A stretch of 64,000 bases of DNA from Ignavibacteria bacterium RIFOXYB12_FULL_35_14 (lineage in GTDB: Bacteria > Bacteroidota > Ignavibacteria > Ignavibacteriales > Ignavibacteriaceae): assembly GCA_001803045.1 (NCBI GenBank), contig MHAR01000064.1:658-64657 (forward strand). Direction: 5' to 3'. The number at the start of each line of letters is the position of its first letter. Within the stretch, counting starts at the first letter, position 1. Positions 14,432 through 50,614 of the stretch are shown here, piece after piece. Under the pieces are notes generated by a model. That model saw nothing but the letters and a program-made list of their open reading frames with translations, was not told the DNA's origin and ran no database searches. Position numbers and translations under genes: made by a program.

Positions 14432-14728
14432 TTAACTTGCATCCCCTTTAAATTTTTTCAAATAAGCTTGCGGATCATTATTAAAAACCTCAATGCAGGC
14501 GTTGCAACAAAATCCAATTATTTTATTATCAAATATCAGGAGAGGAATTTTGTGATCAATTTTCTTCCCCTCAATCGGACAGACTTCATTAATTGGCTTT
14601 AAAGGATTCCTTTCTTTCATATTCACTTCAACAATTATTTCATTATTTAAAAACATTGGTTCGTTTTGAGGAAAGCTTGTCCCTGCTATTATTAAGGTTA
14701 TTGCTGCAGCCAAAAAAATCTTTTTCAT
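14432..14728 (-). CDS. Exported YHS-like domain protein
   Basis: About 98 residues from ATG 14728, which has an AAGGA site in front; an in-frame ATG at 14743 adds five residues. The signal peptide is MKKIFLAAAITLIIAGTSFP. The mature part has INEVCPIEGKKIDHKIPLLI and IGFCCNACIEVFNNDPQAYL, a TRASH/YHS-type Cys arrangement with an extra vicinal Cys pair. It is the first gene behind the sigma54-like promoter at 14779-14794. It is probably a periplasmic metal-binding protein. Confidence 0.72.
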   Translation of the reverse strand: MKKIFLAAAITLIIAGTSFPQNEPMFLNNEIIVEVNMKERNPLKPINEVCPIEGKKIDHKIPLLIFDNKIIGFCCNACIEVFNNDPQAYLKKFKGDAS

Positions 14729-14778
14729 TTCATCCTTATTCATTTAGAGTAATTAATTTTAAAAACTCGATTATATCA

Positions 14779-15426: not shown

Positions 15427-15489
15427 GAAGGGAAAACCTCACAAAATGTCTCAATAATGAAACTTTTAATTAAAGAAGAGAGGGACAAA

Positions 15490-15526
15490 TTTTAAGGAGT
15501 TTAAATATTTTTAAAGTTCTTTAAAG
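15490..15526. promoter_or_regulatory. Candidate activator-binding site (b)
   Basis: TTTTAAGGAGTTTAAA then TATTTTTAAAGTTCTTTAA, four TTAA-type boxes in phase. Over the first 26 positions it is identical to site (f) upstream of the cus operon at 53958-53994, which is hard to explain by chance. Confidence 0.55.
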
Positions 15527-15648
15527 TTTAGGCGACGCGGGTAACTCGTTGCTCAGAGCAAGGATTGAGCATGGTTATCAGCCTTTTAATTGAATAGCTG
15601 GATTAAAAATAAGAAATGCACTGATTAAATAGAAAGGAATATTGATAT

Positions 15649-17292
15649 TCACACAGCACAACAACTAAGTTTCTTAACATCTTTATCAAAACTTATAGCT
15701 GCTATTTTCACTCCCTCTGACAAAGTTAAATATGGATGGAACATTTGTTTTAATTCTTTTACTGTAATTCCGTATTTGATTGCAAGAGAAATTTCCATTA
15801 AAAGTTCTGAACCTTCTGAAGCAAGTATTCTTGCCCCGATTAATTTATCATTTTCTTTGTTGCGAATGAGTTTAATAAATCCTTTTGTATTTCTCGCTAC
15901 AAGAGAATGGGGAACATTTTTAAGTTGAATTGTTGAGACTTCGTATTCAATTTTATTTTCGTATGCTTGATTTTCATCCATTCCAACACCGGCTACTTGC
16001 GGGTCGGTAAATATAACCCACGGGAAAACCGAGTAGTCTTTTTTAATTAGACTTTCACCAAACATATTTGCAACTGCCAAAGAACCTTCATAAGCAGCGG
16101 AATAAACAAACAAGAACTCACCGGTTACATCTCCGGCTGAATAAATATTTGGAATTGATGTTTGCATATATTCATTTGTCTTAATGAAATCTTGCTTATG
16201 AAATTCAACTCCTACTTCTTCTAATCCAAAACCTTTAGTATTTCCTTTTCTGCCAGTTGCAACAAAGATATGAGTTCCTTCTATAATTTCGTAGTTATCT
16301 TTAATTGAAGCATTGACAATAACTTTTCCATTTTTATTTTCGACATATTTTATTTTTGCACCGGTTTTTATTTCTATTCCTTCTTCTTCGAAATATTCTC
16401 TTAATGTTTCGGTTACATCCGGCATTTCATCTGGAAGAATTCTGAATGAGCGTTGTAATATTGTAACTTTAGAACCGAGCCGTGCAAACATCTGAGCATT
16501 TTCCAAAGCGATGTATCTCCCACCAATTACAATTAAATGCTCGGGAAGTTCTTTTAAATCATACAAAGTTTCGTTTGTTAAATAGTTAATCTCTTTTAAA
16601 CCGGGAATATCCGGCACAAATGTGAATGAGCCGGTTGCAATCAATAATTTTTCTGCATAATATTTTTTACCATCTGCTTCAATTGTATTTTTGTCTATAA
16701 GCTTTCCGTACGCTTTAAGAATCGTTACATTCGAATCATCTTTTAAAACATTTACATATTTGTGCTCTCTTAACTCTTCCACTAATTCTGTTTTTTGATG
16801 GATAACTTCCTTAAAATTAATTTTATTATTGCCGGATTTTATTGAAGAAAAGTTTGGATGGTTGGCAATGTGAAATTGTTCTGCGGTTCTTATTAAAGTT
16901 TTAGATGGAACACAGCCTACATTTACGCAAGTACCGCCAATAGGTAAACCATCATTTATCATCAAAACTTTTTTCTCAAGTTCACTTGCTTTTATTGCAG
17001 CGGTAAAAGCGGCGGAACCTCCGCCAATGATAATCAAATCATAGTGATAAACTTTATTTTTATTCGATTCTATTTCATCAATTACCTTATAATGTCCGGT
17101 AGAATTAATGGCATCTATAATTTCTGATTTTGATACTTTGTCCGAATCGAACTCAAATTCACCTTTCCTTTCTGGATAATTTACTGCTTTAGAGATTATG
17201 CCCTCTAATTTAGAAACCTTTTTACTAATTGTTTGTGCACAATGTTCACAAGTCATTCCGTTAATTTCTAATTTTATTGTTTGAACAGACAT
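15649..17292 (-). CDS. merA: Mercuric reductase MerA with N-terminal HMA domain
   Basis: A 547-residue flavoprotein that reduces Hg(II) to Hg(0) with NADPH. Residues 1-70 form an HMA domain (GMTCEHC, Cys15 and Cys18). The FAD site IIIGGGSAAFTAA follows, then the redox disulfide GGTCVNVGCVPSK (Cys122, Cys127), the NAD(P) fold near 250 and the dimer domain. The C-terminal vicinal Cys pair (LSCCAV) is diagnostic for MerA and accepts Hg(II) from transport proteins. GGAG precedes the ATG. It is the last gene of the merR-merTP-merA operon. Confidence 0.95.
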   Translation of the reverse strand: MSVQTIKLEINGMTCEHCAQTISKKVSKLEGIISKAVNYPERKGEFEFDSDKVSKSEIIDAINSTGHYKVIDEIESNKNKVYHYDLIIIGGGSAAFTAAIKASELEKKVLMINDGLPIGGTCVNVGCVPSKTLIRTAEQFHIANHPNFSSIKSGNNKINFKEVIHQKTELVEELREHKYVNVLKDDSNVTILKAYGKLIDKNTIEADGKKYYAEKLLIATGSFTFVPDIPGLKEINYLTNETLYDLKELPEHLIVIGGRYIALENAQMFARLGSKVTILQRSFRILPDEMPDVTETLREYFEEEGIEIKTGAKIKYVENKNGKVIVNASIKDNYEIIEGTHIFVATGRKGNTKGFGLEEVGVEFHKQDFIKTNEYMQTSIPNIYSAGDVTGEFLFVYSAAYEGSLAVANMFGESLIKKDYSVFPWVIFTDPQVAGVGMDENQAYENKIEYEVSTIQLKNVPHSLVARNTKGFIKLIRNKENDKLIGARILASEGSELLMEISLAIKYGITVKELKQMFHPYLTLSEGVKIAAISFDKDVKKLSCCAV

Positions 17293-17304
17293 TATCGCTC
17301 CATC

Positions 17305-17934
17305 TTAATTTTCTTTTTCGTTTATTGTTTGAATCTTTTTCACTTTATAGCCAACTTTATTTTCAACTGCTTTCTTCAATTGTTCCGGCTGAACTTTTGT
17401 ATCATCAAATTGAACAAAAGCAATTCCGGTCTTATAAGATGATTCAGCACTCAAAACACCTTTTTCTGATTTAAGTGCATAATCAACCGATTGTTCGCAA
17501 CTTGTGCAGGTCATTCCTTCAATTTCAAGCTTGGCTTTTATTATGTGATTTGAATTAGCTGATAATTCGCTTTGAGATTCCGGGAAGAATGCTTGAGAGT
17601 AATAAGGAAATGTAATTAAAACAACAGCAATCACTGTTACTATCCATAAAAATGATTTAGAATTAATGAAGCTTTTCTTTGTTTCAACGTTTTCATCATC
17701 GCAAGCACATTCTATCTCATTTTTTTTCTTTGGTTTGTATGCATTATAAAAGGCATAACCGAGAATGATTGCCGTAAAAACAATAAAGTAAGGTCGCAGC
17801 GGTTCAAGAAAAGAAAATGTAGACGCAATACCGCTCAATCCGCCAAATATTGCTAATACCGGCGTAATACAGCATAATGAAGCAAGTAACGCTGTTACTA
17901 TTGCACTGTTTCTGAAAAATTTATTTGTTTCCAC
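17305..17934 (-). CDS. merT: Mercuric transport fusion protein MerTP
   Basis: A 209-residue protein from a GTG start at 17934 with AAGGAG in front. The N-terminal half is MerT-like: helix one carries LLASLCCITP (Cys21, Cys22), with two further helices and a cytosolic ECAC motif (Cys76, Cys78). The C-terminal 75 residues form an HMA/MerP domain with GMTCTSC (Cys143, Cys146). In other operons MerT and MerP are separate; MerTP fusions are known in Bacteroidota. It moves Hg(II) to MerA, encoded 12 nt downstream. Confidence 0.9.
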   Translation of the reverse strand: METNKFFRNSAIVTALLASLCCITPVLAIFGGLSGIASTFSFLEPLRPYFIVFTAIILGYAFYNAYKPKKKNEIECACDDENVETKKSFINSKSFLWIVTVIAVVLITFPYYSQAFFPESQSELSANSNHIIKAKLEIEGMTCTSCEQSVDYALKSEKGVLSAESSYKTGIAFVQFDDTKVQPEQLKKAVENKVGYKVKKIQTINEKEN

Positions 17935-17949
17935 AATAATCTCCTTCAG

Positions 17950-18360
17950 CTAAATAATTTTTTGTTCTATTACTTCAAGAATCGGGCATTCTTCGGTTGA
18001 CACTTCTTCGCAAACACACTGATTAATCAATTTTATCAAAACATTTTTAATATTCTTCAAGTCTTTTATTCTTTCTTCGATGTCTGTTAATTTATGTTCT
18101 GCTAAATGTTTTATATCTCCGCAAGTTGCAGTTGATTCAATTTTTAGATTCAATAATTCTTTTATTTCTTTTAATGTAAAACCAAGTTCTTTTGCTCTTT
18201 TTATGAATAATAATCTTCTCAAATCCAGCTCATCATAAAAACGATAGCGTGATTCCTTACGCTTAGGTTTAGGCATAATTTTTATTTTTTCATAATAGCG
18301 TAAAGTCTCTACGTTCACACCGATTTTTTCAGCTATTTCGCCAACTTTGTAATGTTCCAT
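17950..18360 (-). CDS. merR: MerR-family mercury-responsive regulator
   Basis: A 136-residue MerR protein. The N-terminal winged helix-turn-helix is YKVGEIAEKIGVNVETLRYY, followed by a dimerisation helix. Cys80, Cys115 (or Cys117) and Cys125 match the spacing of the three Hg(II)-binding cysteines of Tn501 MerR (82, 117, 126). It is the first gene of its operon and is transcribed with merTP and merA, unlike the divergent arrangement in Proteobacteria. It probably controls the promoter at 18389-18419, including its own gene. Confidence 0.9.
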   Translation of the reverse strand: MEHYKVGEIAEKIGVNVETLRYYEKIKIMPKPKRKESRYRFYDELDLRRLLFIKRAKELGFTLKEIKELLNLKIESTATCGDIKHLAEHKLTDIEERIKDLKNIKNVLIKLINQCVCEEVSTEECPILEVIEQKII

Positions 18361-18388
18361 TTCTAAACCTATTTTTCACTTAATACAA

Positions 18389-18419
18389 ATATAATATCAG
18401 TAGTATAGTACGGAGTCAA
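18389..18419 (-). promoter_or_regulatory. mer operon promoter/MerR operator
   Basis: On the minus strand, -35 TTGACT (18419-18414) and -10 TTATAT (18394-18389) are separated by 19 bp, the long spacing typical of MerR-activated promoters. The spacer contains CCGTACTATACTACTG, an imperfect dyad resembling the classical CCGTAC/GTACGG mer operator. It lies 29 bp upstream of merR. Confidence 0.65.
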
Positions 18420-18575
18420 GTATTTTTTTATGCGAGGTAGATTTTTTCTAAAAATTGAGATTTGCAAAAATTTTAGAAGGTATTTTCGTTACTTATTTTG
18501 TACAAACTTTATGCGCTATTATATGAATTAAAAAGTAATTAGGAAATCTCGTATAGAATGGTTTCTATTTTGAAT

Positions 18576-20411
18576 TTATTCATACGCATTTAAAACATAC
18601 TGCTGAACCATACGATGCGTATTAAAAAAAGAAGCATTGATAGCAATTGCATGACGCATTATATTGATCCAATACTCCCTGCCAACATAAAAAGTAGGAA
18701 TTATTGCAAATTCTAATTTATCATATAAGGAACTTGCATCTTGCTGGTCGTTGCTTTCCGTATTCTGAGGAGTGCCAATAGACCATCCTGTAATGTCCTC
18801 GATGCATCCTTCAATCCACCAACCATCTAAAATACTTAAGGAAGGTACTCCATTATGTGCGGCTTTCATCCCTGATGTACCGGATGCTTCCTGTGGTTTG
18901 CGCGGCGTATTAAGCCATAAATCAACACCAGAAACTAATAGTTTAGCTAGCTCCTTATCGTAATTTTCAAGGTAAACAACTTTTATTTTGCCTTCTAACC
19001 ATTTCGATGCGATAATAATTTTCTTTATCAAGTCTTTACCCATTGCATCCTGTGGATGAGCTTTACCGGAAAAGATAAATTGCATTTTGCCGGCATCTTT
19101 GGCGATTTTTATTAACCTGTCAACGTCGGAAAAGACTAAATCCGCTCTTTTGTAAGCCGCTGCCCTTCGTGCAAATCCTATTGTAAGGGTTTCAGAATCT
19201 ATGTCAATGCCTGTTTTTTTGTTGACATAATCTATGAGTTTGTTCTTCGCTTCCTGGTGAGTATTCCATATTTCATCATTTGGGATGCTCAAGGCATATC
19301 GCAGGCTAAAAGGATCATTCTTCCAATCCGGAATATATTTATCATAGAGCCTTTTAAAACTGTCGCAAACCCAAGTAGAAGAATGTACACCATTTGTTAT
19401 AGATTCTATTGAATATTCGGGAAACATTAATTGAGATATCTCACCGTGTTTTTTTGCCACACCATTTATGTGCTTACTCTGATTTAAGGCAAGTAATGTC
19501 ATATTCAGCCGTTCTTCACCGCCGAGCATTCTTACTATGTCTGAAGGAATAAATTCTCTTAAAGCATTATCTACTAAATCATAAAAAAACTGGTCATGAC
19601 CTGCTGGTACGGGTGTATGAGTAGTAAATACGCAAAGCTCTCTCACTGCATCAAAATTCCATTCCGGATCTTTATTTCTTTTCATCTCATTTAATAATTC
19701 GAGAGTTAGAAAAGAAGCATGTCCTTCATTCATATGATATTTTTTTATTCCTGTATATCCCAGACTGTGAAGCATGCGCACACCGCCAACACCCAAGACA
19801 ATCTCTTGCAGCAATCTATACCATTGATCCCCGCCATAAAGATAATCGTTAAGCCCTTTATCATATTCACTATTTTCTTCTAAGTCCGTATCTAAAAAAA
19901 TTATAGGTATTGTATAACCGCTTACACCTACCACATCATACTGCCATGCCCGGATAAATACATCTCGGGTTTCTATTTTTATGTTGACTTTTTTCAGCAG
20001 GGGTTTTAAAAAATCCTTTGGATTCCATTGGACGGGTAATTCCTGCTGGTTTCCTTGTGCATCCAATCTTTGGATAAAATAACCTTTTTCATATAAAAGA
20101 GTAATCGCTACCAGGGGTACTTTTAGGTCTGCACAGGATTTTATAAAATCTCCCGCTAAAATACCCAGTCCGCCGCTATAAGTTGGGATTGAAGAATCAA
20201 TTCCAATTTCCATAGAAAAATAGGCAATCTTTCTTTCCTTTATTTTCTCAGCATCATACGACCTGTGTCTGTGCTTCAAATATTTATCTGGAGAATTCTG
20301 AAATTCGTTTTTGCATAAGTTTGAGCAGAAATAAAATATCTTACCCTTATATTCAAATTTAAATTCTTCTTTTGCAGTCATTCCACAAATGAGGTCTTTA
20401 ACCATTTTCAT
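18576..20411 (-). CDS. glgP: YHS-domain/alpha-glucan phosphorylase fusion (GT35)
   Basis: A 611-residue protein with two parts. Residues 1-45 are a YHS metal-binding domain (VKDLICGM, then FYFCSNLCKNEFQNSPDKYL). The remainder is an alpha-glucan phosphorylase of the short bacterial type: [49 protein letters not shown] and the PLP-lysine motif GTSGMKA (Lys516). It would phosphorolyse glycogen or maltodextrin to glucose 1-phosphate. A stand-alone homologue without YHS lies at 40166-41875. AAGGATG before the third-codon ATG suggests that Met3 may be the real start. The fusion implies metal-controlled activity; this is inference. Confidence 0.9.
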   Translation of the reverse strand: MKMVKDLICGMTAKEEFKFEYKGKIFYFCSNLCKNEFQNSPDKYLKHRHRSYDAEKIKERKIAYFSMEIGIDSSIPTYSGGLGILAGDFIKSCADLKVPLVAITLLYEKGYFIQRLDAQGNQQELPVQWNPKDFLKPLLKKVNIKIETRDVFIRAWQYDVVGVSGYTIPIIFLDTDLEENSEYDKGLNDYLYGGDQWYRLLQEIVLGVGGVRMLHSLGYTGIKKYHMNEGHASFLTLELLNEMKRNKDPEWNFDAVRELCVFTTHTPVPAGHDQFFYDLVDNALREFIPSDIVRMLGGEERLNMTLLALNQSKHINGVAKKHGEISQLMFPEYSIESITNGVHSSTWVCDSFKRLYDKYIPDWKNDPFSLRYALSIPNDEIWNTHQEAKNKLIDYVNKKTGIDIDSETLTIGFARRAAAYKRADLVFSDVDRLIKIAKDAGKMQFIFSGKAHPQDAMGKDLIKKIIIASKWLEGKIKVVYLENYDKELAKLLVSGVDLWLNTPRKPQEASGTSGMKAAHNGVPSLSILDGWWIEGCIEDITGWSIGTPQNTESNDQQDASSLYDKLEFAIIPTFYVGREYWINIMRHAIAINASFFNTHRMVQQYVLNAYE

Positions 20412-20485
20412 CCTTGTTTTTTAATCAACTTTTTTTCACAAAGGTTCGGAAATAATAATTTTTTCTTTGTACTTCGATACGTTCA

Positions 20486-20980
20486 CTAAAATGCATTAAG
20501 CGGGATGTTCAACGAAAGCATCGCAGTGTTAGTCGGCGCATCGTAGCGCAGCGAGATATTCTGATTGTATCGTTCAGCCGAGTACCCCGCATCAAATGCG
20601 CTAATTATCTTTACTACTACATATCCCGCCAGCAAATAATAGAACTGGATTCGTTCTGCTGTAGTCCATGAAGGGCGATAATCTGAGCCATAATAATTTG
20701 AATAATTATGCATACCCCATGACCAGCCATTGCGTCCTAGCAAAACGGCTGCCGGTATAAAAAGGATAAGTTCTGCAGTTGTGTAGATAATTCCACGTTC
20801 CCAATTGCCAATGTAAAAATTCCCTAAATCAACAGGCAGCGGTTGAATCGAAAGCAGCGCAGCTGTTGCAGGGTCTTTTCTATTAGCATTGTCAACTCTA
20901 CCTCTGCCGTGATGTTGAGCGAAGCCAATGCTTGATGCTAGAACAAGCAATAGCACTACGAAAAAAACAATTCGTTTCAT
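20486..20980 (-). CDS. Exported membrane protein of unknown family
   Basis: A 164-residue protein not assigned to a family. It has a signal peptide (MKRIVFFVVLLLVLASSIGF, AQHHG), a hydrophobic helix IIYTTAELILFIPAAVLLGR, a second one at FYYLLAGYVVVKIISAF and a C-terminal strand MLSLNIPLNAF. The pattern resembles the small P13/DUF5683-type membrane proteins of Bacteroidota. It lies between the YHS-GlgP fusion and a Met/His-rich lipoprotein. No metal ligand cluster is evident apart from HHGRG after the signal peptide. Confidence 0.6.
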   Translation of the reverse strand: MKRIVFFVVLLLVLASSIGFAQHHGRGRVDNANRKDPATAALLSIQPLPVDLGNFYIGNWERGIIYTTAELILFIPAAVLLGRNGWSWGMHNYSNYYGSDYRPSWTTAERIQFYYLLAGYVVVKIISAFDAGYSAERYNQNISLRYDAPTNTAMLSLNIPLNAF

Positions 20981-21031
20981 TGTAACCTCATTGGATATAG
21001 AGTTTCGTACTTAGTTAGTATGTTCTTAAAA

Positions 21032-21646
21032 TCATCTGAACATAAAGAGCATTATTATTGCAATTACACCGGCGCTGATTAAGACGACAGGAGATATTCC
21101 ATATCCTGTCATATTATCACCATTTTCTGAATGTTGATTCACTTGACTTAATAGTTGAATGGTTTGGTCAACTTCGATTGGTGGATCTATCGTAACATTT
21201 CCAACTCTTTCTAAAACAAAAATAAATTTATAAGCGCCCGTGTTTTTGATTGATGGACGAAAAATATACGTCCCATTATTAATTCCGTCCGGTAAAAATT
21301 TCATTTCTTTCATCTTACCGTGATCGGAATGTGAGTCTTGTCCCCGACTATTATCCGTAGTTACAATCAATGAAATTGACGCATCGGAGATAATTAATTT
21401 TTCGCGAACATCATAAAGAGTAACTTTATAAGCCAGTTCATCGCTTAAAGTATATGGCGGAAATTCAGCAGTAATTTTTATCCCATTAACAACAGATTCC
21501 TTTACGATTGTTTGACCGTTCATAGAAGAGCCATGTGAATCTCCATGCATACCGCCGCTTCCTGTGTGCCCCATTCCTCCCATACCGAGCATCATGCAGC
21601 CGCTGAGAAAAAGTGGCGTTAGAAGAGTTAAATAAATTTTGTTCAT
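21032..21646 (-). CDS. Met/His-rich lipoprotein with FixH/YtkA-like domain
   Basis: About 204 residues from ATG 21646, preceded by GGAG; an upstream ATG at 21676 would place ten residues before the signal peptide. The lipobox is LFLSGC (MNKIYLTLLTPLFLSGCMML). Gly/Met/His-rich sequence follows (MGGMGHTGSGGMHGDSHG), then a beta-rich domain (about residues 45-165) like YtkA/FixH, and a C-terminal membrane helix (VVLISAGVIAIIMLFMF). It is probably a membrane-anchored metal-binding protein. Function is not established. Confidence 0.65.
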   Translation of the reverse strand: MNKIYLTLLTPLFLSGCMMLGMGGMGHTGSGGMHGDSHGSSMNGQTIVKESVVNGIKITAEFPPYTLSDELAYKVTLYDVREKLIISDASISLIVTTDNSRGQDSHSDHGKMKEMKFLPDGINNGTYIFRPSIKNTGAYKFIFVLERVGNVTIDPPIEVDQTIQLLSQVNQHSENGDNMTGYGISPVVLISAGVIAIIMLFMFR

Positions 21647-21676
21647 AGCGTCTCCATTATTTAGTTTTTTAAACAA

Positions 21677-21793
21677 TTATTGATGATAAGATTTATGCTC
21701 TGATTCATTAGTCGAATTCTTCATCATATAGTGTTTCATCTTACTACTTTCACCGTTCATCATGTTCATCATCATTTTATACATCTTCGTCAT
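21677..21793 (-). CDS. Small Met-rich peptide (38 aa)
   Basis: An ORF from ATG 21793 gives MTKMYKMMMNMMNGESSKMK, then HYMMKNSTNESEHKSYHQ. GGAGG lies 10 nt and GAGG 2 nt before the start. Twelve Met or Cys-free metal-type residues in 38 codons recall the Met repeats of the larger protein at 28030-28578. It could be a small cytosolic Cu(I) binder or the decayed end of a larger Met-rich gene. The 150 bp upstream of it show nothing clear. Confidence 0.4.
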   Translation of the reverse strand: MTKMYKMMMNMMNGESSKMKHYMMKNSTNESEHKSYHQ

Positions 21794-25276: not shown

Positions 25277-28000
25277 TTAATTTAATTTTGGTTTTTTAGA
25301 AAGAATCCCTTTAGGGGGAAATCTTCTTAAACGATTTGCATTAGTTACAACTGTTACAGAACTAAATGCCATAGCTGCACCCGCAATTATTGGGGAGAGC
25401 AGAACTCCGAAGAATGGGAAAAGCAAACCAGCAGCTATTGGTAAACCCAATCCATTGTAAAAGAAAGCGCCGAATAAATTCTCTTTAATATTTTTCATTG
25501 TCGCTTTAGAAAGCTGAATTGCAAGCACAACACCTTTAAGACTTCCTTTAATTAAAGTAATGTCAGATGCTTCGATTGCAACGTCAGTTCCGGTGCCAAT
25601 GGCCAGACCGATATCTGCTTGAGCTAATGCTGGCGCATCATTTATTCCATCCCCAACCATTGCAACAATCTTTCCTTCATTTTGCAATTTCTGAACATTG
25701 AAAGCTTTATCTTCCGGTAAAACTTCGGCGAGAACTCTATCTATACCAACCTGTTTACCGATTGCATTTGCAGTCCTTGTATTATCGCCGGTTATCATTA
25801 CTACTTCCAATCCCATTTTTCTAAGCAATGCAATCGCTTCTTTTGAATCCGGTTTAATCGTATCTGCAACGGCAATAATTCCGGCAGCTTTATTATCTAT
25901 TGCAATAAACATTGGTGTTTTACCATCATCTGCAAGTTTTATACTTTTTACTTCAAGGTCACCAAGATCTATAGAAAATTTTTTCATCATCTTTAAGTTG
26001 CCAAGAAATATTTTTCTTTCATTAACATTTGCCTCAACTCCGTATCCGGGCACAGCATTAAAGTTTTGAGCATCAAACAATTCGAGAGATTTATTTTTAG
26101 CTCCGTTAACGATAGCTTCTGCTAAAGGATGTTCAGAAGATTTTTCTACACTCGCACTTAAGCCAAGCACGTCGCTTTCAGAAAATCCATTTGCGGTCAG
26201 AACATCTGTTAATGAAGGCTTGCCTTCAGTTATTGTCCCGGTTTTATCAAGTACAATTGTATTTAGCTTTTGAGCTGTCTCCAATGCTTCGCCGCTTCTA
26301 ATTAATATTCCGTTCTCAGCACCTTTACCGACTCCGACCATCAATGAAATAGGCGTAGCCAATCCAAGTGCACAAGGACACGCAATAACCAATACAGTTA
26401 CAAAAACAATCAGTGCATAAATTAGCTGAGGTGCGGGTCCAAATACATACCATATAACAAATGAAAGAATAGCTGTAATGATAACTGCAGGTACAAAATA
26501 TCCTGAAACCTTATCAACAATTTTTTGGATAGGAGCTTTAGAACTCTGAGCCTGTTCAACCATCTGAATAATTTGTGCGAGCGCTGTATCCTTTCCAACT
26601 TTTGTAGCTTTGAATTTAAAGGAACCGGTTTTGTTAATTGTAGCGCCGATTACTTCATCACCCTCGTGCTTTTCAACAGGAATAGATTCGCCAGTAATCA
26701 TCGATTCATCTATTGATGATGATCCCTCTACAAGAATACCATCTACAGGAATTTTTTCTCCGGGTCTTACGATAATTATATCGTCAAGTACAACTTCTTC
26801 TACAGGCAGATCAATTTCATTTCCATTACGCAATACTCTTGCAGTTTTAGCTTGCAATCCAATTAATTTTTTTATTGCTTCCGAACTTTTGCCTTTTGCC
26901 CTAATCTCAAGAGCCATTCCTAGAACAACCAATGCCACTACAACAAAAATCACATCAAAAAACTGATCGGCTAATTCAGCTACGGGAAATATTTGTGGAA
27001 AATAGGTGGCGATCATCGAATAGATCCACGCTGCCGAAATTCCGGTTGCAATTAATGTGTGCATATTTGCCGAACGATTTTTAAACGCGGCTAATGCACC
27101 CGTATAAAACTGTGAGCCGGACCAGAACATCACGGGCAGAGCCAAAATTCCCATTGCCATCCAGATGTATCTTAAAACAGAAGAACCCATTTGGAATTGT
27201 TCGGGTAATCCCCAAACGGTTGGATAACTGAAGAAAATGACAGGCAGAGCAAGTATCGCAGCAAAGATAAATTTATTCATCAAAGTTTTATATTCTTTTG
27301 CACGGGCAAGCTGGTTCTCATCAACAGGTTCTGCTGCTACGGTTTTCATTTCTACTTTTCCTTCTCCCGTTTTGGGAGATTCTTTTTCGGCCTTTATACC
27401 GGCAGTGTCAAAAGTTTTATATCCGAGCTTATCAATTACATTCTTTATTTCATTAACATTAATTAATCCAGGGATGTAATTTATTATAGCAGATTCAGTT
27501 CCCATATCAACGCTTGCAGTAATGACTCCGTTTTTTAGTTTAAGCTCTTTTTCAATTTTAGAGACACACGACCCGCAATGCATTCCTCTTATTCCAATCT
27601 TTAGAGTTGACTGCCCGGTTTGATAACCGGCATTTTTAATTGCGCTTATTATTTCTTCCGTTGTGGTTTCACCGCTCTTAAACTCAATGTGTGCAGTTTC
27701 TGTTGCATAATTTACGTGTGCTACCTTTATCCCTGGCAACTTCTTTATTTCTTTCTCAATCGTATTTACACAAGAAGTGCAGTGAAGTCCGTTTATCGGC
27801 AAAGAAAGCTTTTCTATTCCATAGCTTGTTGTTTTATATGACGGCTCTACATTATTCATCTTTTCTATGTATTTATTAGGGTCAAGAACAAATTTATCCT
27901 CGCAGTTCTCAGAGCAGAACTCGTATCTTTTTCCATCTAAATCAATGTAATATTTAGATTGTGATTTCACTTCCATTCCGCAAACGGGGTCGCGTGTCAT
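25277..28000 (-). CDS. copA: Copper-translocating P1B-ATPase with N-terminal YHS domain
   Basis: A 907-residue Cu(I) export ATPase. Order: YHS domain (residues 1-47, DPVCGMEV and [10 protein letters not shown]), two HMA domains (GLHCTSC about 71-77 and GMHCGSC about 140-145), eight membrane helices, the CPC metal site ([11 protein letters not shown], Cys541 and Cys543), phosphorylation motif DKTGT, HPLAEA and the hinge [16 protein letters not shown]. The CPC plus the NGLG and GAAMAFSS motifs in the last helices mark the Cu(I) subgroup. It follows the Met-rich gene and precedes the cupredoxin gene; all three probably depend on sigma54-like promoter (d). Confidence 0.95.
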
Positions 28001-34706: not shown

Positions 34707-34919
34707 TTAATGATGGTGATGATGTTTGTGTTCATCGCTGTCATCTCTCTTCACATACTTTTCGGGATTTTGTTCAAATTGAATCCTACAAAGTGTAGTG
34801 CAGAAATAATAAGTCTTATCATTGTGCTCCATTCTTTCATCTTTGGAAATATCTTTTATTTCCATTCCGCAAACAGGGTCGTGTATTCCCGCAGAGCGGG
34901 ATTTCTCTTCGTTCAACAT
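34707..34919 (-). CDS. YHS domain protein with His-rich tail
   Basis: A 70-residue protein: repeat-derived N-terminus MLNEEKSRSAGI, then YHS core HDPVCGMEIKDISKDE and YYFCTTLCRIQFEQNPEKY, and a tail ending EHKHHHHH. The YHS Cys positions and the poly-His tail both fit metal binding. A near copy lies at 36204-36410. The first twelve codons are encoded by a palindromic repeat (34887-34916) found in other genes, so the N-terminus is probably not part of the ancestral domain. Confidence 0.85.
   Translation of the reverse strand: MLNEEKSRSAGIHDPVCGMEIKDISKDERMEHNDKTYYFCTTLCRIQFEQNPEKYVKRDDSDEHKHHHHH
34887..34916. repeat. Palindromic repeat unit inside the YHS gene start
   Basis: Plus strand TCCCGC-AGA-GCGGGA followed by TTTCTCTTCGTTCAA. 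On the minus strand it encodes LNEEKSRSAG directly behind the ATG. The same unit is at 33471, 36378 and 46598. Confidence 0.7.
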
Positions 34920-36203: not shown

Positions 36204-36410
36204 TTAGTGATGGTGATGCCCCATATGTTCATCATCCTTTTTAAGGTACTTTTCAGAACTTTGCTGGAATTTATTCTTACAGTCATTACTGCAGAAATAA
36301 TAAATCTTCCCTTTATAATCTGTTTTTTCTGCTTTGAAAATATCTTTTATTTCCATTCCACAAACAGGATCCTGTATTCCCGCAGAGCCGGATTTCTCTT
36401 CGTTCAACAT
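36204..36410 (-). CDS. YHS domain protein with His tail (paralogue)
   Basis: A 68-residue copy of the protein at 34707-34919: MLNEEKSGSAGI, then QDPVCGMEIKDIFKAEKTDY, IYYFCSNDCKNKFQQSSEKY and a tail ending GHHHH. The upstream 40 bp are also nearly identical between the two copies, so the duplication was recent and included the leader. Its repeat-derived start contains one mismatch in the palindrome stem. Confidence 0.85.
   Translation of the reverse strand: MLNEEKSGSAGIQDPVCGMEIKDIFKAEKTDYKGKIYYFCSNDCKNKFQQSSEKYLKKDDEHMGHHHH
36378..36407. repeat. Palindromic repeat unit inside a YHS gene start (mutated stem)
   Basis: TCCCGC-AGA-GCCGGA followed by TTTCTCTTCGTTCAA; one base of the stem differs from the copy at 34887. 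On the minus strand it encodes LNEEKSGSAG. Confidence 0.65.
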
Positions 36411-37541: not shown

Positions 37542-38585
37542 TCATTTAATTAAAAAATCCTTCCGCATTCCCATTGCTTCATCGGTGATACGGATAGATT
37601 CACTACCATCTTTAATCGTACTCATCAGAGCACGGATTGCATCAATACTTTCAGGAACCACAATCGCTTCATTATAAACCTGATAAGTATAATAAACTTC
37701 GTTGCCGTTAACGGTTAATACATCTTCCCATAAAGCAACCTCCCACATATCGCCCCGCGGTCGTCCCAAATCTTTCATTAATTCAATAGTGCTGTTAAGC
37801 GCAACAATCCCATCGCTCATTCTTATAAAGGCAATGCGCGGTGCTGTTTTAAATGCTGCTAATACTTCTTCTCTACTTGCATCGCGTGTAAGTTCCACAA
37901 CCCAATAATGATTATGCGTTTGTGTGTGAGCCGCTTTGACTGCCATTGTTATTACATCAAGTTCTGGTACAACAGTTTGAGCATCGGGACCCTGATGACT
38001 TGGAATATGCGGTTCGGGCACAACTGTGTTCATAATACCGCTATGGTCTGATTCCCAGGGGTCTGTAGCGCGTCTGATTAAAACACCGCGTGCTTTTTTT
38101 AGCAAGCCGGCGTTACGCAAAGCTGTGAGTGTACGAACTGTACTTGTAGTATTGCAGGAAACAACACGCGTAGCATCAAGTCCCAACGCTGTTTCATAAT
38201 TAGCCTGTGCAACAAAAGAATGACCGGTTAGAGTATGCTTTTCGCCACCCTGATAAATTGCCTTTACACCGGCTTTTTTATAAAGCTCAAGATTTTTAGC
38301 TCCAATTCCTTTTGGAGTGCAATCTACTATTACGTCAATTTGCTTTAGTAAGTCATCCAGATTTCCTGCTATTGGAATATCTGAATCCCTCATTTCATTT
38401 GATTTTTCGGATAGCGATGCATAGACCGGCAATCCCAGTACAACTGCGGCTTTAACACGGTAGTCACTAACTACATCGGCAACGCCCACCAGTTCCATAT
38501 CCGGCTGAATTTTTATTGCATCGGCAACACGTTTGCCAATAACACCGTAACCATTTACTGCTGCTTTTATTTTTTTATTTAACAT
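37542..38585 (-). CDS. Type II (archaeal-type) glyceraldehyde-3-phosphate dehydrogenase
   Basis: A 347-residue dehydrogenase of the archaeal GAPDH family: nucleotide motif AVNGYGVIGKRVADAI, catalytic Cys144 in RVVSCNTTSTVRTL, and a phosphate-binding HTQTHNHYWVVEL region. Type II GAPDH is usual in archaea and rare in bacteria, so transfer is likely. GGAG precedes the ATG. It is followed by a PfkB kinase gene and, further along, two alpha-glucan phosphorylases, giving a glycogen-to-triose module inside the metal island. Confidence 0.9.
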   Translation of the reverse strand: MLNKKIKAAVNGYGVIGKRVADAIKIQPDMELVGVADVVSDYRVKAAVVLGLPVYASLSEKSNEMRDSDIPIAGNLDDLLKQIDVIVDCTPKGIGAKNLELYKKAGVKAIYQGGEKHTLTGHSFVAQANYETALGLDATRVVSCNTTSTVRTLTALRNAGLLKKARGVLIRRATDPWESDHSGIMNTVVPEPHIPSHQGPDAQTVVPELDVITMAVKAAHTQTHNHYWVVELTRDASREEVLAAFKTAPRIAFIRMSDGIVALNSTIELMKDLGRPRGDMWEVALWEDVLTVNGNEVYYTYQVYNEAIVVPESIDAIRALMSTIKDGSESIRITDEAMGMRKDFLIK

Positions 38586-38634
38586 ATTTATTACTCCTCA
38601 ATTTTAATTGATTTATTTTAAATCGTTTCACTTC

Positions 38635-39567
38635 TCAATTAAGTGAATTCATATTTAAGTATAATCTTTCTGTATCTTCTCTTCCACATAATTCTGTTCC
38701 CGAAGACATTACTGCGGCAGCTCCCGCAGCCACACCAAATTTAACAGCCTCATAAACAGATTTACCACGTTCAAGACTTAGCACAATACCGGCTGTCATA
38801 CTATCGCCTGCTCCAACTTTGCTTCTAATAGGAACAGTAGGAGATTTCACTTGTAATACTTTTTCATTTGAAATTAACAATGCCCCGCCTGCACCGAGTG
38901 ATATAACCACATTCTCAGCTTTTTTGTTTTTCAATAAATGCCTGGAAAATTCTATCAAATCCTTTTCATTATGAATTGGTTTTTCTGCTATATCATTTAT
39001 TTCTCTCATATTTGGTTTGATTAAAAAAACACCTTCTTCAACAGCTTTGTAAAGTGCCTTCCCTGAAGTATCTACAATTACTCTTATATTTTTCGCGGTT
39101 CCAATTTTTGCAACTCTTGCATAAAAATCTTCCGGAACTCCCTTTGGAAGACTACCGCTTGCAACGATATAATCAAGTTTTTCATTAAGATTATTTAAGA
39201 TTTCAAAACATTTTTCCCATTCATCTTTATTTAATTCAGGACCAGGCATAACAAAACGATACTGTTGATTACTAATTTCTTCAGAAACAGTAATATTTTC
39301 TCTTGTCATTCCTTTAATTTGAATAACTACCTGATTAATTTCTTCTTTATCGAGTAGCTGGTTAAGAACTTTTCCATTGGCACCGCCTGCAAGATAGATT
39401 GCAAGAGAGTTACCACCTAATTTTTTAATTGCACGTGATACATTTAGCCCGCCTCCACCCGCATCATAATTAGGAACTCTACAGCGTAATTTATTTTCTG
39501 CAATTACATGATTAACACTTGTATTTAAATCGATAGTCGAATTAAGTGTAATAGTTACGATTTTCAC
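38635..39567 (-). CDS. PfkB-family sugar-phosphate kinase (1-phosphofructokinase type)
   Basis: A kinase of about 310 residues starting at GTG 39567 (VKIVTITLNSTIDLNTSVNH), with GAGG in front; a TTG further up at 39591 is less likely. PfkB motifs: GGGGLNVSRAIKKLGG at the N-terminus and SKVGAGDSMTAGIVLSLERG (catalytic Asp in GAGDS) at the C-terminus. The pattern GGLNVSRAIKKLGG and PNMREIND fits the 6-/1-phosphofructokinase branch. It probably works with the adjacent GAPDH and the alpha-glucan phosphorylases. Confidence 0.87.
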   Translation of the reverse strand: MKIVTITLNSTIDLNTSVNHVIAENKLRCRVPNYDAGGGGLNVSRAIKKLGGNSLAIYLAGGANGKVLNQLLDKEEINQVVIQIKGMTRENITVSEEISNQQYRFVMPGPELNKDEWEKCFEILNNLNEKLDYIVASGSLPKGVPEDFYARVAKIGTAKNIRVIVDTSGKALYKAVEEGVFLIKPNMREINDIAEKPIHNEKDLIEFSRHLLKNKKAENVVISLGAGGALLISNEKVLQVKSPTVPIRSKVGAGDSMTAGIVLSLERGKSVYEAVKFGVAAGAAAVMSSGTELCGREDTERLYLNMNSLN

Positions 39568-39657
39568 TAATACCTCTTTTAGTATAAACAATGATTAACG
39601 TTTTCACAAATTCAAAATTTTCTCCATTATTTTCGAAGAATAGATTTTTAGTTAGAA

Positions 39658-39924
39658 TTATTTAGCTATTATTTCCCATCTTTTATAAAAGAAATTGTAT
39701 ATAGGTACAAAAACCAAACCCGCATAAACGCCATAGAGAAAACTTTCTATTAGCCCGAGGAGAAATCCCCACCATGTCAGCCATTTGAAAGCCGGAAGCA
39801 CTAATTCCAAAAATGTATGCATGTGAATGCTCTCCGGAGTTATCAGACCATAAATAACACAGACAATAAAGCTTACAGCAGTAAAAAGCCCTAGCGACCA
39901 GGTTACAATTTTTATGTTCAGCAT
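39658..39924 (-). CDS. Small membrane protein, DUF5676-like
   Basis: An 88-residue protein with two or three hydrophobic helices (LGLFTAVSFIVCVIYGLI, then WWGFLLGLIESFLYGVYAGL) and a VPIYNFFYKRW end. It resembles the DUF5676 family and each half of the protein at 46004-46630. The role is unknown. It occurs between the PfkB gene and a His-rich small membrane protein gene, near the second alpha-glucan phosphorylase. Confidence 0.68.
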   Translation of the reverse strand: MLNIKIVTWSLGLFTAVSFIVCVIYGLITPESIHMHTFLELVLPAFKWLTWWGFLLGLIESFLYGVYAGLVFVPIYNFFYKRWEIIAK

Positions 39925-39956
39925 TTTAATTTTCCTTATTTATTTTACATAAGTTG

Positions 39957-40133
39957 TTAATGATGTCTATGATCGGAATCGCGGGTTTGGCTTTTTCGTT
40001 GTTTATCCCCCTCATCGTAATCATTATGTTTTCCATGTCCGCCGTGTCCGCCATGCCCACCATGACCAAGGTGCATGGCAATAAAAACAACACCTATCAG
40101 CACCCAAAGCCAATTTTCTGCCAGCCATTCCAT
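39957..40133 (-). CDS. His-rich small membrane protein (58 aa)
   Basis: From ATG 40133 (AGGAG site): MEWLAENWLWVLIGVVFIAM, then HLGHGGHGGHGGHGKH and an acidic/basic end DSDHRHH. One membrane helix plus a (HGG)n repeat recalls DUF2933-type and other His-rich metal proteins. Not listed by standard length cut-offs because it is below 60 residues. The repeated His is suited to binding Ni, Cu or Zn. It lies 32 nt upstream of the next minus gene end. Confidence 0.7.
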   Translation of the reverse strand: MEWLAENWLWVLIGVVFIAMHLGHGGHGGHGGHGKHNDYDEGDKQRKSQTRDSDHRHH

Positions 40134-40165
40134 ATTAATTTCTCCTTGTTTAATTAATAAAACAT

Positions 40166-41875
40166 TCAGCTAAAATATGCTTTCAGAACATACTGCTGCA
40201 GCATTCTTTGTGTATTAAAAAATGATCCATTCATTGCAATAGCATGCCTCATTACATCAATCCAGCGATCACGTTGATTATAAAAAAGCGGCAGGATTTG
40301 GTTTTCCAATTTATCATACAATTGTAATGCATCACTAGTATCGCTAAATGAATCTTTATTTATATTTTCCTTATCGCCAATTGCCCAGCCGGTTATACCT
40401 TCAATGCAGCCTTCAATCCACCATCCATCTAAAATGCTTAAAGAAGGGACGCCGTTTAATGCAGCCTTCATTCCGCTTGTTCCCGAAGCTTCCATAGGTG
40501 GATGAGGCGTGTTAAGCCAGAGATCTACCCCCGAGGTAATTAGCCCCCCTAACTCCATATCATAATTTTCAAGAAAAATAACTTTTACAAAATCTTTAAG
40601 TTCATTTCTTACTTGAATTATATGTTTAATAATTTCTTTCCCCTGCTGGTCATTAGGATGGGCTTTCCCTGCAAAGATTATTTGAAAAGTTCCGGCTTTA
40701 GCAGCGATACTTTTTAAACGGTTTAAATCGGAGAAAATCAGGTATGGTCTCTTATATGCAGCTACTCTGCGTGCAAAACCAATTGTAAAAATATTCAAGC
40801 CCAATCCATCGTTGGTCTCATGATTAACATAATCTATTAATTGCTCTTTGGCTTTTTGATGTGCATTCCAAATAGAATCTCCCGGAATGTTTAGTGCATA
40901 ACGCAAGGCAAAATTATCGGTTTCCCAGCCGGGAATATAACCGTTTAATAATTCTTTAAAAGGTTTGGACATCCAGGTATTAATGTGAACCCCATTTGTA
41001 ATATAATCAATACGATATTTAGCAAACAGATCTTTAGAAATTTCACCATGCTTTTTAGCAACACCATTAATAAAGTGACTAAGATTAAGAGCGAGATAGG
41101 TCATGTTAAGCAAATTTCCATGGCAAAAGACTTCTTTAAGATTATCGAATTCTTCTCTTGGTCCAAGTACTTGCTTGACCAAATCCATTGGGAACTGATC
41201 ATGCCCCGCAGGAACAGGTGTGTGCGTAGTAAACACGCATTTTTTTCTTACAGGTTCAATATCGTCCTTGGTTATATAGTTTCGTTTATGTTTTGCTGCC
41301 TCTCTATCTAATAATTCCAACCCTAAAAGAGCGGCGTGTCCTTCATTCATGTGGTATCTCTCCAAGTTAACATATCCAAGTTCCTGCAGCATTCTAATAC
41401 CACCAATACCAAGAATGACTTCCTGGCAAAGACGGTAATGTGGATCCCCGCCGTAAAGTGAGTCTGTAAGATGCCTATCCCACTCAGAATTTTCAGGTAA
41501 GTTTGCATCCAGAAAATAAACCGGAACTTTAAATCCGCTGACTCCAATCATTTCAAACTTCCAGGCACATAAAACAACCTCTCTTCCTTCTATAGTAACA
41601 GATGCTCTTGCAGGTACTTTTTGCAAGTGATCTTCCGGTAGCCATTCAACAGGCTCTTCTTGCTGCCAGCCGTTTATATCCAGCTTTTGATAATAATAAC
41701 CTTTACGGTAAAGAAGCGTTACAGCAACAACTGGAACTTTTAAATCTGCGGCGGAGCGAATTGTATCACCAGCCAGAATTCCTAATCCGCCGCTGTATGT
41801 TGGTATATCCGGGTTAATTCCAATTTCCATCGAAAAGTATGCTACTGAAATCTGATTGTTTAATAACTCTTTCAT
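40166..41875 (-). CDS. glgP: Alpha-glucan phosphorylase (GT35)
   Basis: A 569-residue enzyme homologous to the C-terminal part of the YHS fusion at 18576-20411 but without a YHS domain. Motifs: [71 protein letters not shown] and the PLP-lysine motif [14 protein letters not shown]. It would release glucose 1-phosphate from glycogen. No strong ribosome site is seen. It belongs to the same run as PfkB and type II GAPDH. Two copies in one metal island are unusual. Confidence 0.92.
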
Positions 41876-46650: not shown

Positions 46651-46824
46651 TCATTTTCTTAAATTGTTAATAAATTTTTGAGGATTTTTCTCAAACTCTA
46701 CCTGACAAATCGGACAGCATAAGTAGTAAGTTTCTTTTCCGTACTTTACTTTTGCATAAGCTTTGTTTGGATTAATCTTTTTCCCGCAAACCGGATCTCG
46801 AAGAATATGAGTATTTGATTTCAT
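46651..46824 (-). CDS. YHS domain protein (57 aa)
   Basis: From ATG 46824, with AGGAG: MKSNTHILRDPVCGKKINPN, then AYAKVKYGKETYYLCCPICQ and VEFEKNPQKFINNLRK. It is a single YHS domain with four Cys including CCPIC. A mutated copy with an early stop lies on the plus strand at 57728-57899. The ATG of the next gene overlaps its stop. It falls below a 60-residue cut-off. It probably binds copper or silver for the CusA/P-II neighbourhood. Confidence 0.8.
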   Translation of the reverse strand: MKSNTHILRDPVCGKKINPNKAYAKVKYGKETYYLCCPICQVEFEKNPQKFINNLRK

Positions 46825-47226: not shown

Positions 47227-50200
47227 TTAATTTTCTAAAACTCTTCCTTCTAACTTTGCCTGCTTTTTCATTTCCCACGATCTCCACAGATAGTAAATAA
47301 CAGGATAGACAGCCAACTCCATCATAACAGAAGTGACTACACCGCCAACCATCGGGGCAGCGATGCGTTTCATTACATCTGCACCTGCACCGGTACTCCA
47401 CATTATTGGAAGAAGTCCGGCTATTATAACTGAAGCAGTCATAATTTTAGGTCGAACCCGTTTAACAGCTCCATAATGGATAGCGTCTTTCAGTCCTTTC
47501 AATCCGGTTAGCAATCCTTTTTCTTTCCATTCTTTTAAGGCGACATCAAGATAGAGTAACATAACTACGCCGGTTTCCGCATCTAATCCCGCAAGGGCAA
47601 TTATACCCACCCAAACAGCAATACTTATATTGTAACCGAGCAGATAGAGAAGCCAAAAAGCACCGACAAGAGAGAATGGAACGGCAAGAAATACGATTCC
47701 AACTTTTACTAAAGATTTTGTATTCAGATAAATGATTACGAAGATAATAAACAGAGTCATCGGTATAACATATAATAGTCTTTCCTGAGCACGCAACATA
47801 TATTCGTATTCGCCGCTCCATGTAATGTTATAGCCTGCAGGAAGTTTAATTTTTTCTAATATAATTTTTTGTGCATTTTTTACATAAGTACCAACGTCAA
47901 TATTTTTTATATCAACATAGACCCAAGCGTTGGGGCGTGTATCTTCACTTCTAACAACCATAGGACCTTTGCGCGGTGTAATAGTTGCAAGTTGCCCAAT
48001 TGGAACTTGCTCACCGATTGGTGTAGGCACCAACACTTTCTTCATCGCTTCGATATTATCTCTTAGCTCCCGGCTGTAACGAAGATTAACAGTGTATCTT
48101 TCCAATCCTTCAACCGTAGTTGTAACAGCCATGCCGCCCATAGCAGTTTGAATAACATTTTGAATGTCATCAATAGTTAAGCCATAACGGGCTGCTTCTT
48201 TTCTGTTGATTTCTATATCGAGATAATTTCCTCCGACAGCTCTTTCAGCAAAGGCACTTAAAGTTCCGGGAACGGTTCGCATCACGGATTCAACTTCTTT
48301 ACCAATATCCTGCAACGTTAATAAATCAGGTCCGGATATTTTTATTCCAACTGGAGTTTTGATTCCCGTGCTGAGCATGTCCGTTCTTGTTTTGATTGGC
48401 ATTGTCCAGGCATTAGTAACACCGGGGAACTGAATAGCTCTGTCCATTTCATCAATTAATTTTTGAACAGTCATTCCGGAGCGCCATTCATTTTCGGGCT
48501 TCAACATTATTGTAGTTTCGACCATGTCAAGCCCTGCCGGATCGGTTGCTGTTTCTGCACGTCCTATTTTTCCAAATACGTGGTGAACTTCGGGAAATGT
48601 TTTAATGATTTTATCGGTCTGTTGTAATATTTCTTTTGCCTTAGTGATTGACATACCGGGCATTGTTGTGGGCATGTAAAGTAAATCGCCTTCATAAAGC
48701 GGGGGCATAAATTCAGAGCCAATATTTTTGAAAGGGATTATTGTTATACCGAGAATAATTAAAACAGCAACGAGAACAGCTTTATTGTGCTTGATTACAA
48801 AATCAACAACAGGATGATATATTTTAATAAGAAATCTATTTATAGGATTTCTTTCTTCCGGTAAAATCTTTCCGCGAATCCAGTATCCCATTAAAATAGG
48901 AACAAGAGTAACTGAAAGAATTGCGGCGGCTGCCATTGAATATGTTTTTGTAAATGCCAGCGGTTTAAATAATCTTCCTTCCTGCGCTTCGAGTGTGAAT
49001 ACCGGGATGAACGAAACAGTTATAACTAACAGGGAATAGAAAAGGGAAGGTCCGACTTCCTTTGATGCATCAATTATAAGCTGCCATCTGTCTTTTCTTT
49101 CTTCAGGTGGTTTAAGTGCTTCGTGTTCGATGTGCTTATGTGCGTTTTCAATCATGATTATTGCAGCATCCACCATTGCGCCTATTGCTATTGCAATTCC
49201 ACTCAAGGACATTATGTTAGCATTAATACCCTGCCAGCGCATAACGATAAATGCCATGAGTATAGCTGTGGGAAGCGTAATGATTGCCACAAAAGCACTT
49301 CGGGCATGAAGCAAAAATAAAATACATATCAACGCTACAAAGAGAATTTCTTCTACGAGTTTTTCTTTTAGGGTATCTATTGCTCGTTCAATTAAACCAG
49401 CGCGGTCATAAACAGCTTCAATTTTTACATCTGAAGGAAGACCGGGTTTTAGTTCTTCCAATTTTTGTTTTACTTGTTCGATTACCTTGAGTGCGTTCTG
49501 TCCGTACCTCATGACAATAATTCCACCGACAACTTCGCCCTCGCCATTCGATTCAGCCAATCCTCTTCTCATCAAAGGACCAATCGTAACATCTGCAACA
49601 TCCTTCAGATAAACTGGTGTGTTCGTCATTTTATTTACCATTAAAGGAATGTTCTGGATATCTTCAACAGATTTGATGTATCCGAGTCCACGCACCATAA
49701 ATTCCATTTCGCCCATTTCAATTACTTCGCCGCCGACGTCGTTATTGGATTTTTTAATTGCCATATCAATCATAGAAAGCGGAATGTTGTAAGCAAGTAA
49801 TTTTGTTGGGTCAACAGTAACTTGATATTGTTTAACATATCCGCCAATGCTTGCAACTTCTGCAACTCCATCTACAGCCGATAGAGCATATTTAAGATAC
49901 CAATCTTGAATAGAGCGAAGCTCCTGAAGCGATCTTGTATCGGAAGTAATTTTATATTCGTAAACCCAGCCAACGCCTGTAGCATCCGGTCCTAAAGTAG
50001 GAACAATATTATTTGGAAGCCGCTGCTGTGCATAGTTTAAATACTCAAGCACTCTGCTTCTTGCCCAATAGATATCTGTCCCGTCTTCGAAGATTACATA
50101 AACTAACGAATACCCAAAGAAGGAATATCCTCGCACTACTTTAGAACCCGGTACTGAAACCATGGCTGTTGTTAAAGGATAAGTAACCTGATCTTCGACT

Positions 50201-50379: not shown

Positions 50380-50429
50380 TTTTTCTCCAATATTAAATTC
50401 GAAATACTACTTCTAAAGAAACTCATCCC

Positions 50430-50455
50430 AGCCCTTCTCTTGTTAGAGAAGGGCT
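50430..50455. repeat. Hairpin repeat, inverted pair unit 1
   Basis: AGCCCTTCTCT-TGTT-AGAGAAGGGCT, a perfect 11-bp stem. It is preceded by ACTCATCCC and is inverted relative to the unit at 50522-50548, whose tail reads AGGGTGAGTT. Both lie in the 235-bp gap between cusB and cusA and could attenuate cusA expression. Confidence 0.65.
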
Positions 50456-50521
50456 TATTGTCAACAATATTAATCATAATTTTTCCTGTCAGGACGTTTC
50501 ATGTAAAATTGTACTCCAACA

Positions 50522-50548
50522 AATCCCTCTCTTTGTAAGAGAGGGATT
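50522..50548. repeat. Hairpin repeat, inverted pair unit 2
   Basis: AATCCCTCTCTT-TGT-AAGAGAGGGATT, a perfect 12-bp stem followed by AGGGTGAGTT. Same type as 2747-2776 and 50430-50455. Confidence 0.65.
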
Positions 50549-50614
50549 AGGGTGAGTTCAATTAGCATAATGATAGGATATGAAATTCGTGACTTCATTC
50601 TGAGCATTTCATTT

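Follow-up and report, generated by a model that had tools for sequence, protein, structure and literature searches.

Glycogen phosphorylase serves in textbooks as an example of allosteric control, which is exerted by AMP, by phosphorylation and by HPr. Its relatives in the GT35/TIGR02094 family include the maltodextrin phosphorylase of Thermococcales and the glycogen phosphorylase of Segatella copri (PDB 9l6i), with which the enzyme described here has in common the whole catalytic model, the PLP lysine, the phosphate-site motifs and the fold. While family members of about 850 residues carry an N-terminal part of ~100 residues and a long C-terminal part, our enzyme lacks both and instead has a YHS domain in front. 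On the YHS side, an adenylyl cyclase of Mycobacterium phlei is turned on by 1-10 µM Cu2+ through a YHS domain that has been proposed to act as a copper-sensing switch, with one Asp and three Cys as proposed ligands (PMC4626032). This cyclase likewise joins an enzyme to a YHS domain with the same Asp and three Cys set, but the enzyme is a different one, its YHS domain is C-terminal and it has been tested experimentally, whereas the fusion reported here has an N-terminal YHS domain and is known from sequence. The YHS domains of P1B copper ATPases and of stand-alone YHS proteins in metal islands belong to the same family and have the same ligands, but no sugar enzyme is attached to them. Searching open-licence PMC papers, we found none that pairs a YHS domain with a (glycogen) phosphorylase, none that combines phosphorylase, phosphoketolase and copper resistance, and no description of metal control of a phosphorylase via YHS; public records label the fusion proteins "alpha-glucan (family) phosphorylase" without comment. 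Both domains belong to known families; their combination is new, and the regulation probably so. If true, metal sensing by an N-terminal domain would add a new input to the control of phosphorylase and tie metal stress to central carbon metabolism in an unusually direct way.

The fusion is encoded on the minus strand of the window (the whole stretch of DNA that was analysed, 64,000 nucleotides from Ignavibacteria bacterium RIFOXYB12_FULL_35_14) by an ORF at 18576-20411. The 611-residue protein consists of an N-terminal YHS domain, a flexible linker and a short-form alpha-glucan phosphorylase:

20271-20402, minus strand: YHS domain, residues 4-47 (Pfam PF04945), with putative ligands D6, C9, C29 and C33
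20229-20270, minus strand: flexible linker, residues 48-61, pLDDT below 50 at residues 48-52, dN/dS roughly 0.7 between this genome and its nearest relatives (a rough value, since the stretch is short)
18582-20228, minus strand: short-form alpha-glucan phosphorylase, GT35/TIGR02094, residues 62-610, PLP lysine K516 (TIGR02094, Foldseek)

A first-pass annotation had recognized a YHS domain and a complete GT35 enzyme with its PLP lysine in one ORF, and this is confirmed by matches to PF04945, PF00343 and TIGR02094 and by K516. It had also described the two parts as directly joined, which is not the case, as ~14 residues (48-61) with pLDDT falling below 50 intervene. Its "full GT35 enzyme" is accurate in that the TIGR02094 model is covered whole, but the enzyme is the short form (~550 residues), its start coinciding with that of the family model; in the host's order, ordinary phosphorylases have ~850-870 residues. 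The first ATG of the ORF lies at 20411 and a second at 20405 (residue 3), which has an AAGGAT better spaced upstream of it and may be the true start. Since other, independent assemblies and complete circular plasmids contain the fusion too, a gene-calling or assembly artefact is ruled out.

The assignment of the enzyme to the phosphorolytic alpha-glucan family, as predicted from model and motifs, rests on a TIGR02094 (NCBIfam) match of residues 62-610 to model positions 1-598 of 600 (E 2.9e-173, 577.9 bits against a cut-off of 191.7), on a further match to Pfam Phosphorylase (PF00343, E 2e-36) and on the PLP lysine motif EASGTSGMK, which together with FARRAxxYKR is invariant in an alignment of seven fusions. 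In the AlphaFold model (mean pLDDT 87.9, 35-row alignment) the catalytic part adopts the glycogen-phosphorylase fold, the best PDB match found by Foldseek being the Segatella copri enzyme (20yr/9l6i, TM 0.84). The putative metal-binding domain matches PF04945 over residues 4-47 (E 1.1e-11, 44.9 bits against a cut-off of 30.3) and forms a beta-beta-alpha module of two strands and two short helices, with pLDDT ~91-92 at residues 11-40. Scanning other fusions with Pfam gave a YHS domain above the cut-off in eight of nine, the remaining one (L048) falling slightly under it (27.4 bits). Asp6, Cys9, Cys29 and Cys33 are invariant in the seven-fusion alignment, and the predicted ligand set D/C-x2-C...C-x3-C is kept in every further fusion that was read. 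In five archaeal fusions (L171-L175) the first ligand is Cys rather than Asp, giving C-x2-C and a four-Cys site, which suggests that these sites may be of the zinc type. Comparison of this genome with its two nearest relatives (G029 and G017) yields dN/dS values for the YHS part of 0.25 and 0.13, and 0.09 between those two, values that are rough as they rest on 45 codons; the enzyme part gives 0.14, 0.11 and 0.10 for the same three pairs. With its ligands invariant and its dN/dS low, the YHS part of the fusion is maintained, under clear purifying selection.

The first-pass annotation had proposed to look for the same domain pair in other genomes and for the context in which it occurs. Many carriers were found, so that absence of the fusion from all relatives is ruled out. 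Within the host's order its distribution is accessory: it is present in three of the 146 genomes sampled, namely this one, G029 (87% identical; an Ignavibacteriales MAG, L038 in the second collection) and G017 (78%; L039), and is absent from the same-genus relative. Plasmid records of the cyanobacteria Aulosira, Chroococcidiopsis, Leptolyngbya and Stanieria contain matches over residues 3-610 with 56-59% identity. A scan of 84,980 species genomes, in which matches were read through to their N-termini, adds bacterial fusions in anammox Planctomycetota (Loosdrechtia, Kuenenia), Gemmata, Omnitrophota, two Nitrospirota, Blastocatellia and Nostoc, along with three archaeal ones (two Bathyarchaeota and Borrarchaeum). 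In total 15 bacterial fusions are distributed over Ignavibacteriota/Bacteroidota, Omnitrophota, Planctomycetota, Nitrospirota, Acidobacteriota and Cyanobacteria, some of them on circular plasmids. Among Bathyarchaeia, the match extends through the YHS part in 15 of 151 genomes, several of which also carry an unfused copy. Phage records hold only unfused or unrelated phosphorylases, and a phage origin was rejected on these grounds. Two apparent second phosphorylases in tandem with a fusion were discarded: that of Nitrospira sp. RCA (L047, 8392-8838) is really a truncated YHS-phosphorylase copy upstream of the intact one, and that of L044 is a false panel match, really an exported YHS-like protein.

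The fusion has arisen at least twice independently, once in bacteria and again in Bathyarchaeota/Borrarchaeota. In a tree of the catalytic part the 15 bacterial fusions group together, with three unfused rows from Omnitrophota/Atribacterota among them, and the archaeal fusions are placed elsewhere. A single clade of all fusions, and with it a single origin, is rejected by the AU test (p = 1.1e-10), while a single clade of the bacterial fusions is not rejected (p = 0.87). The junction differs as well. It comprises ~14 residues in the window protein and two in the modelled archaeal fusion, whose YHS helix (37-45) runs straight into the first catalytic strand (48-52). Given the flexibility and low conservation of the bacterial linker, no docking of the YHS domain is predicted for the window protein.

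Bacterial fusions are recurrently linked to copper and heavy-metal efflux genes. We compared neighbouring ORFs with a protein panel drawn from the window and from annotated plasmids, a strict list comprising a P1B-ATPase, CusA, a multicopper oxidase or a four-helix copper protein within ~10 kb. Such a neighbour is present for 11 of the 15 bacterial fusions. Among unfused relatives the count is six of 52 (fused versus unfused, Fisher p = 9e-6, relatedness ignored), and among ordinary phosphorylases it is none of 20. All 15 bacterial fusions have at least one metal-island gene nearby once accessory families (ICMT, DUF2933, CusB-like/HMBD, mer) are counted. Because the bacterial fusions are essentially one clade, the association rests on few independent events, and a sign test of fused domain against metal context has only two or three independent pairs, a number at which it has no power; the metal-island context is thus strong as a description and weak as a statistic. 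The context anticipated from the domain pair is borne out for the bacterial fusions but not for the archaeal ones: no metal island was found in the archaeal neighbourhoods inspected, several of which contain genes for GH57, debranching enzymes or glycosyltransferases, the rest being plain. It is therefore possible that the fusion is linked to a general metal or redox signal rather than to metal resistance.

The island in the window comprises, besides the fusion, the following genes, all on the minus strand, and contains at least six YHS modules:

25277-28000, minus strand: P1B-type copper ATPase with its own N-terminal YHS domain and two HMA domains (Pfam E1-E2_ATPase, HMA, YHS)
36204-36410, minus strand: stand-alone YHS protein, 62% identical to the fused YHS (match G000:C64:36891-37034)
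34707-34919, minus strand: stand-alone YHS protein (paralogue)
46651-46824, minus strand: stand-alone YHS protein adjoining the CusAB genes
47227-52321, minus strand: CusA-type RND pump (47227-50379) and CusB-type adaptor with HMBD (50615-52321)
40166-41875, minus strand: second short alpha-glucan phosphorylase, unfused, 60% identical, on a different tree branch
38635-39591, minus strand: PfkB-family phosphofructokinase (1-PFK/PFK-II type)
37542-38585, minus strand: type II (archaeal-type) phosphorylating GAPDH (E 3.6e-139, above the equivalog cut-off)
15649-18360, minus strand: MerR-MerTP-MerA cassette (family matches) between the phosphorylase and a TPR gene, not the fusion's own unit

The stretch 37542-41875 on the minus strand, with the unfused phosphorylase, DUF2933-like and DUF5676-like small proteins, PfkB and type II GAPDH, reads by family assignment as a glycolytic module interleaved with small proteins of the copper island. 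The mer genes belong to a ~3.1-kb insertion (~15434-18566, from comparison with G029). In G029 and G017 the phosphorylase is followed directly by the TPR gene, and the homologous cassette of G029 (89-95% identical) lies tens of kb off, adjoining its copper ATPase. Since the cassette occupies this place only in the window genome among the three compared, its proximity is no argument for a mercury-specific role of the fusion, a reading that was rejected, and a conserved linkage to mer genes was not found in this comparison. A MerR-type promoter-like stretch (TTGACTCCGTAC...) is found just upstream of merR, near 18400. Other observations on the island concern a stretch at 20401-21777 with 95.6% identity to G029, most flanks being at 74-88%, which suggests recent exchange or recombination within the island; an exported protein of 103 residues (14432-14743) with a YHS-like CPIEG...FCCNACIEVF motif, no Pfam match and a homologue in G029 that is encoded after the TPR gene, on its downstream side; and an FtrD-like membrane protein (PF10080, 8599-9300) behind a zinc ribbon and adjoining FtsX/MacB-type ABC transporter genes.

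Sugar-catabolic genes also accompany fusions elsewhere. L-lactate dehydrogenase and 6-phosphofructokinase (PfkA) genes lie immediately upstream of the L048 fusion, acetate kinase (AckA) and phosphoketolase genes neighbour that of L045, a phosphoketolase gene is near the Leptolyngbya fusion (L033) and a TreT-like synthase gene near that of L040.

What, then, might the YHS domain do for the enzyme? It is about an even call, in our judgement, whether the fusion is a metal-responsive glycogen (alpha-glucan) phosphorylase, borne by a mobile copper/heavy-metal island, that turns glycogen into ATP and reductant under metal stress. Through Asp6, Cys9, Cys29 and Cys33 the N-terminal YHS domain would bind a soft transition metal, with Cu(I)/Cu(II) as the likeliest candidate, and metal occupancy would shift its position against the catalytic core and alter phosphorylase activity, probably raising it. 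Stored glycogen would then be phosphorolysed to glucose-1-phosphate at no expense of ATP and feed glycolytic or phosphoketolase enzymes, sometimes themselves encoded on the island, the output being substrate-level ATP for P-type ATPases, and reductant, while the metal poisons normal carbon metabolism. We infer the identity and binding of the metal, the allosteric effect (by analogy with the M. phlei cyclase) with its direction, and the physiological role of the fusion. In Staphylococcus aureus copper binds and inhibits GAPDH, blocking glycolysis (PMC6350627), and in Synechocystis the transcripts of the housekeeping glgP and glgX fall at high copper (PMC4182526), so that a dedicated phosphorylase copy makes sense. 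The context of metal genes, the recurrence in several phyla and the separate archaeal origin together indicate that cells may use the fusion to mobilise their sugar reserves when they meet metals. A bolder version, which we regard as tentative and rather doubtful, is that the islands bear a portable module leading from glycogen to ATP. Besides the phosphorylase it would contain phosphofructokinase, type II GAPDH or phosphoketolase and acetate kinase, and the phosphorylase, as its point of entry, would be switched on by the toxic metal via YHS, an arrangement that would have been invented separately in bacteria and archaea.

Instead, the metal site of the YHS domain, for zinc perhaps, could have a structural or targeting role, stabilizing the enzyme or tethering it to partners such as the copper ATPase without any switching. 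The four Cys of some archaeal fusions, as in zinc-type TRASH domains, and the archaeal contexts unrelated to metal would fit such a site, as would the fact that small zinc-finger-like domains frequently bind proteins. Ordinary and unfused short phosphorylases, on the other hand, manage without a YHS domain, the bacterial D/C/C/C set is that of the copper-sensing cyclase and of the island's own copper ATPase, and the bacterial fusions are concentrated in copper islands, all of which leaves a purely structural or targeting role unlikely, if still a serious contender. It is less probable again that the switch works in the opposite direction, the phosphorylase being inhibited by metal and the glycogen store kept back for as long as the metal blocks glycolysis. 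Activation and inhibition look alike in the sequence evidence, and the lowered glgP and glgX transcripts of Synechocystis (PMC4182526) would agree with sparing, but the experimental precedent is one of activation through YHS (PMC4626032), the neighbours are catabolic or energy-conserving enzymes and ATP-driven pumps, and it would be odd for a resistance island to carry an enzyme that metal inhibits.

Two further readings deny the pairing a regulatory purpose altogether. Islands that are rearranged and hold as many YHS genes as the one in the window could generate such a fusion as a recombination product, a passenger with no function of its own. Conservation of the fused YHS domain, with ligands invariant across phyla and dN/dS of 0.09-0.25 (rough values, as above), largely excludes this, and the independent archaeal fusion also speaks against it, so that we consider a mere passenger very improbable. 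We find it just as hard to credit that the protein is a metal buffer or metallochaperone to which the phosphorylase part merely gives abundance: stand-alone YHS proteins are indeed found throughout the islands, but the catalytic residues of the fusion are fully conserved, its catalytic part evolves at dN/dS 0.10-0.14 and a glycolytic module is among its neighbours. Both the metal control of phosphorylase and the wider pattern of sugar-catabolic enzymes in metal islands can be put to direct test, as Leptolyngbya boryana, a cultivable cyanobacterium, bears the fusion on a plasmid (NIES2135_63130).

The fusion points to this wider and apparently undescribed pattern: in several phyla, chromosomal and plasmid-borne copper and mercury islands combine pumps with enzymes of sugar catabolism, and some of these enzymes duplicate a step (GAPDH) that copper is known to poison. 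Unfused short phosphorylases, close homologues without the YHS domain, are found in the same kind of island, both in the window (40166-41875) and on plasmids (L035, L037, L176, L178, L179), among them those of Simkania, Criblamydia, Ancylobacter, Roseomonas and Pseudorhizobium; the YHS domain is therefore dispensable for that role. A metal pump lies near nine of the 12 plasmid short phosphorylases inspected, the fused cyanobacterial ones included. Of the unfused plasmid copies (L176, L035, L177, L178, L179 and L037), those of the five genera just named have CusA, heavy-metal or other cation ATPases, cueR or merA as neighbours, that of the Simkania plasmid coming right after cusA. Indioceanicola has type II GAPDH, phosphoglucomutase, GlgX and a YHS gene. 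Cassettes for glycogen use are found on a plasmid of Methylophaga thalassica (L183: aldolase, isoamylase, PGM, PGI, transketolase, glgP, AckA, phosphoketolase) and on one of Meiothermus (L181: GH57, glgP, a stand-alone YHS gene, pfkA, type II GAPDH). On the Criblamydia plasmid (L035, 14946-17356) a PRPP synthetase gene and a gene of the thymidine phosphorylase family adjoin CusA, phosphoketolase, glgP and acetate kinase. As copper is reported to be linked to PRPP metabolism in S. aureus (PMC10249872), such islands may hold duplicates of enzymes that are sensitive to copper.
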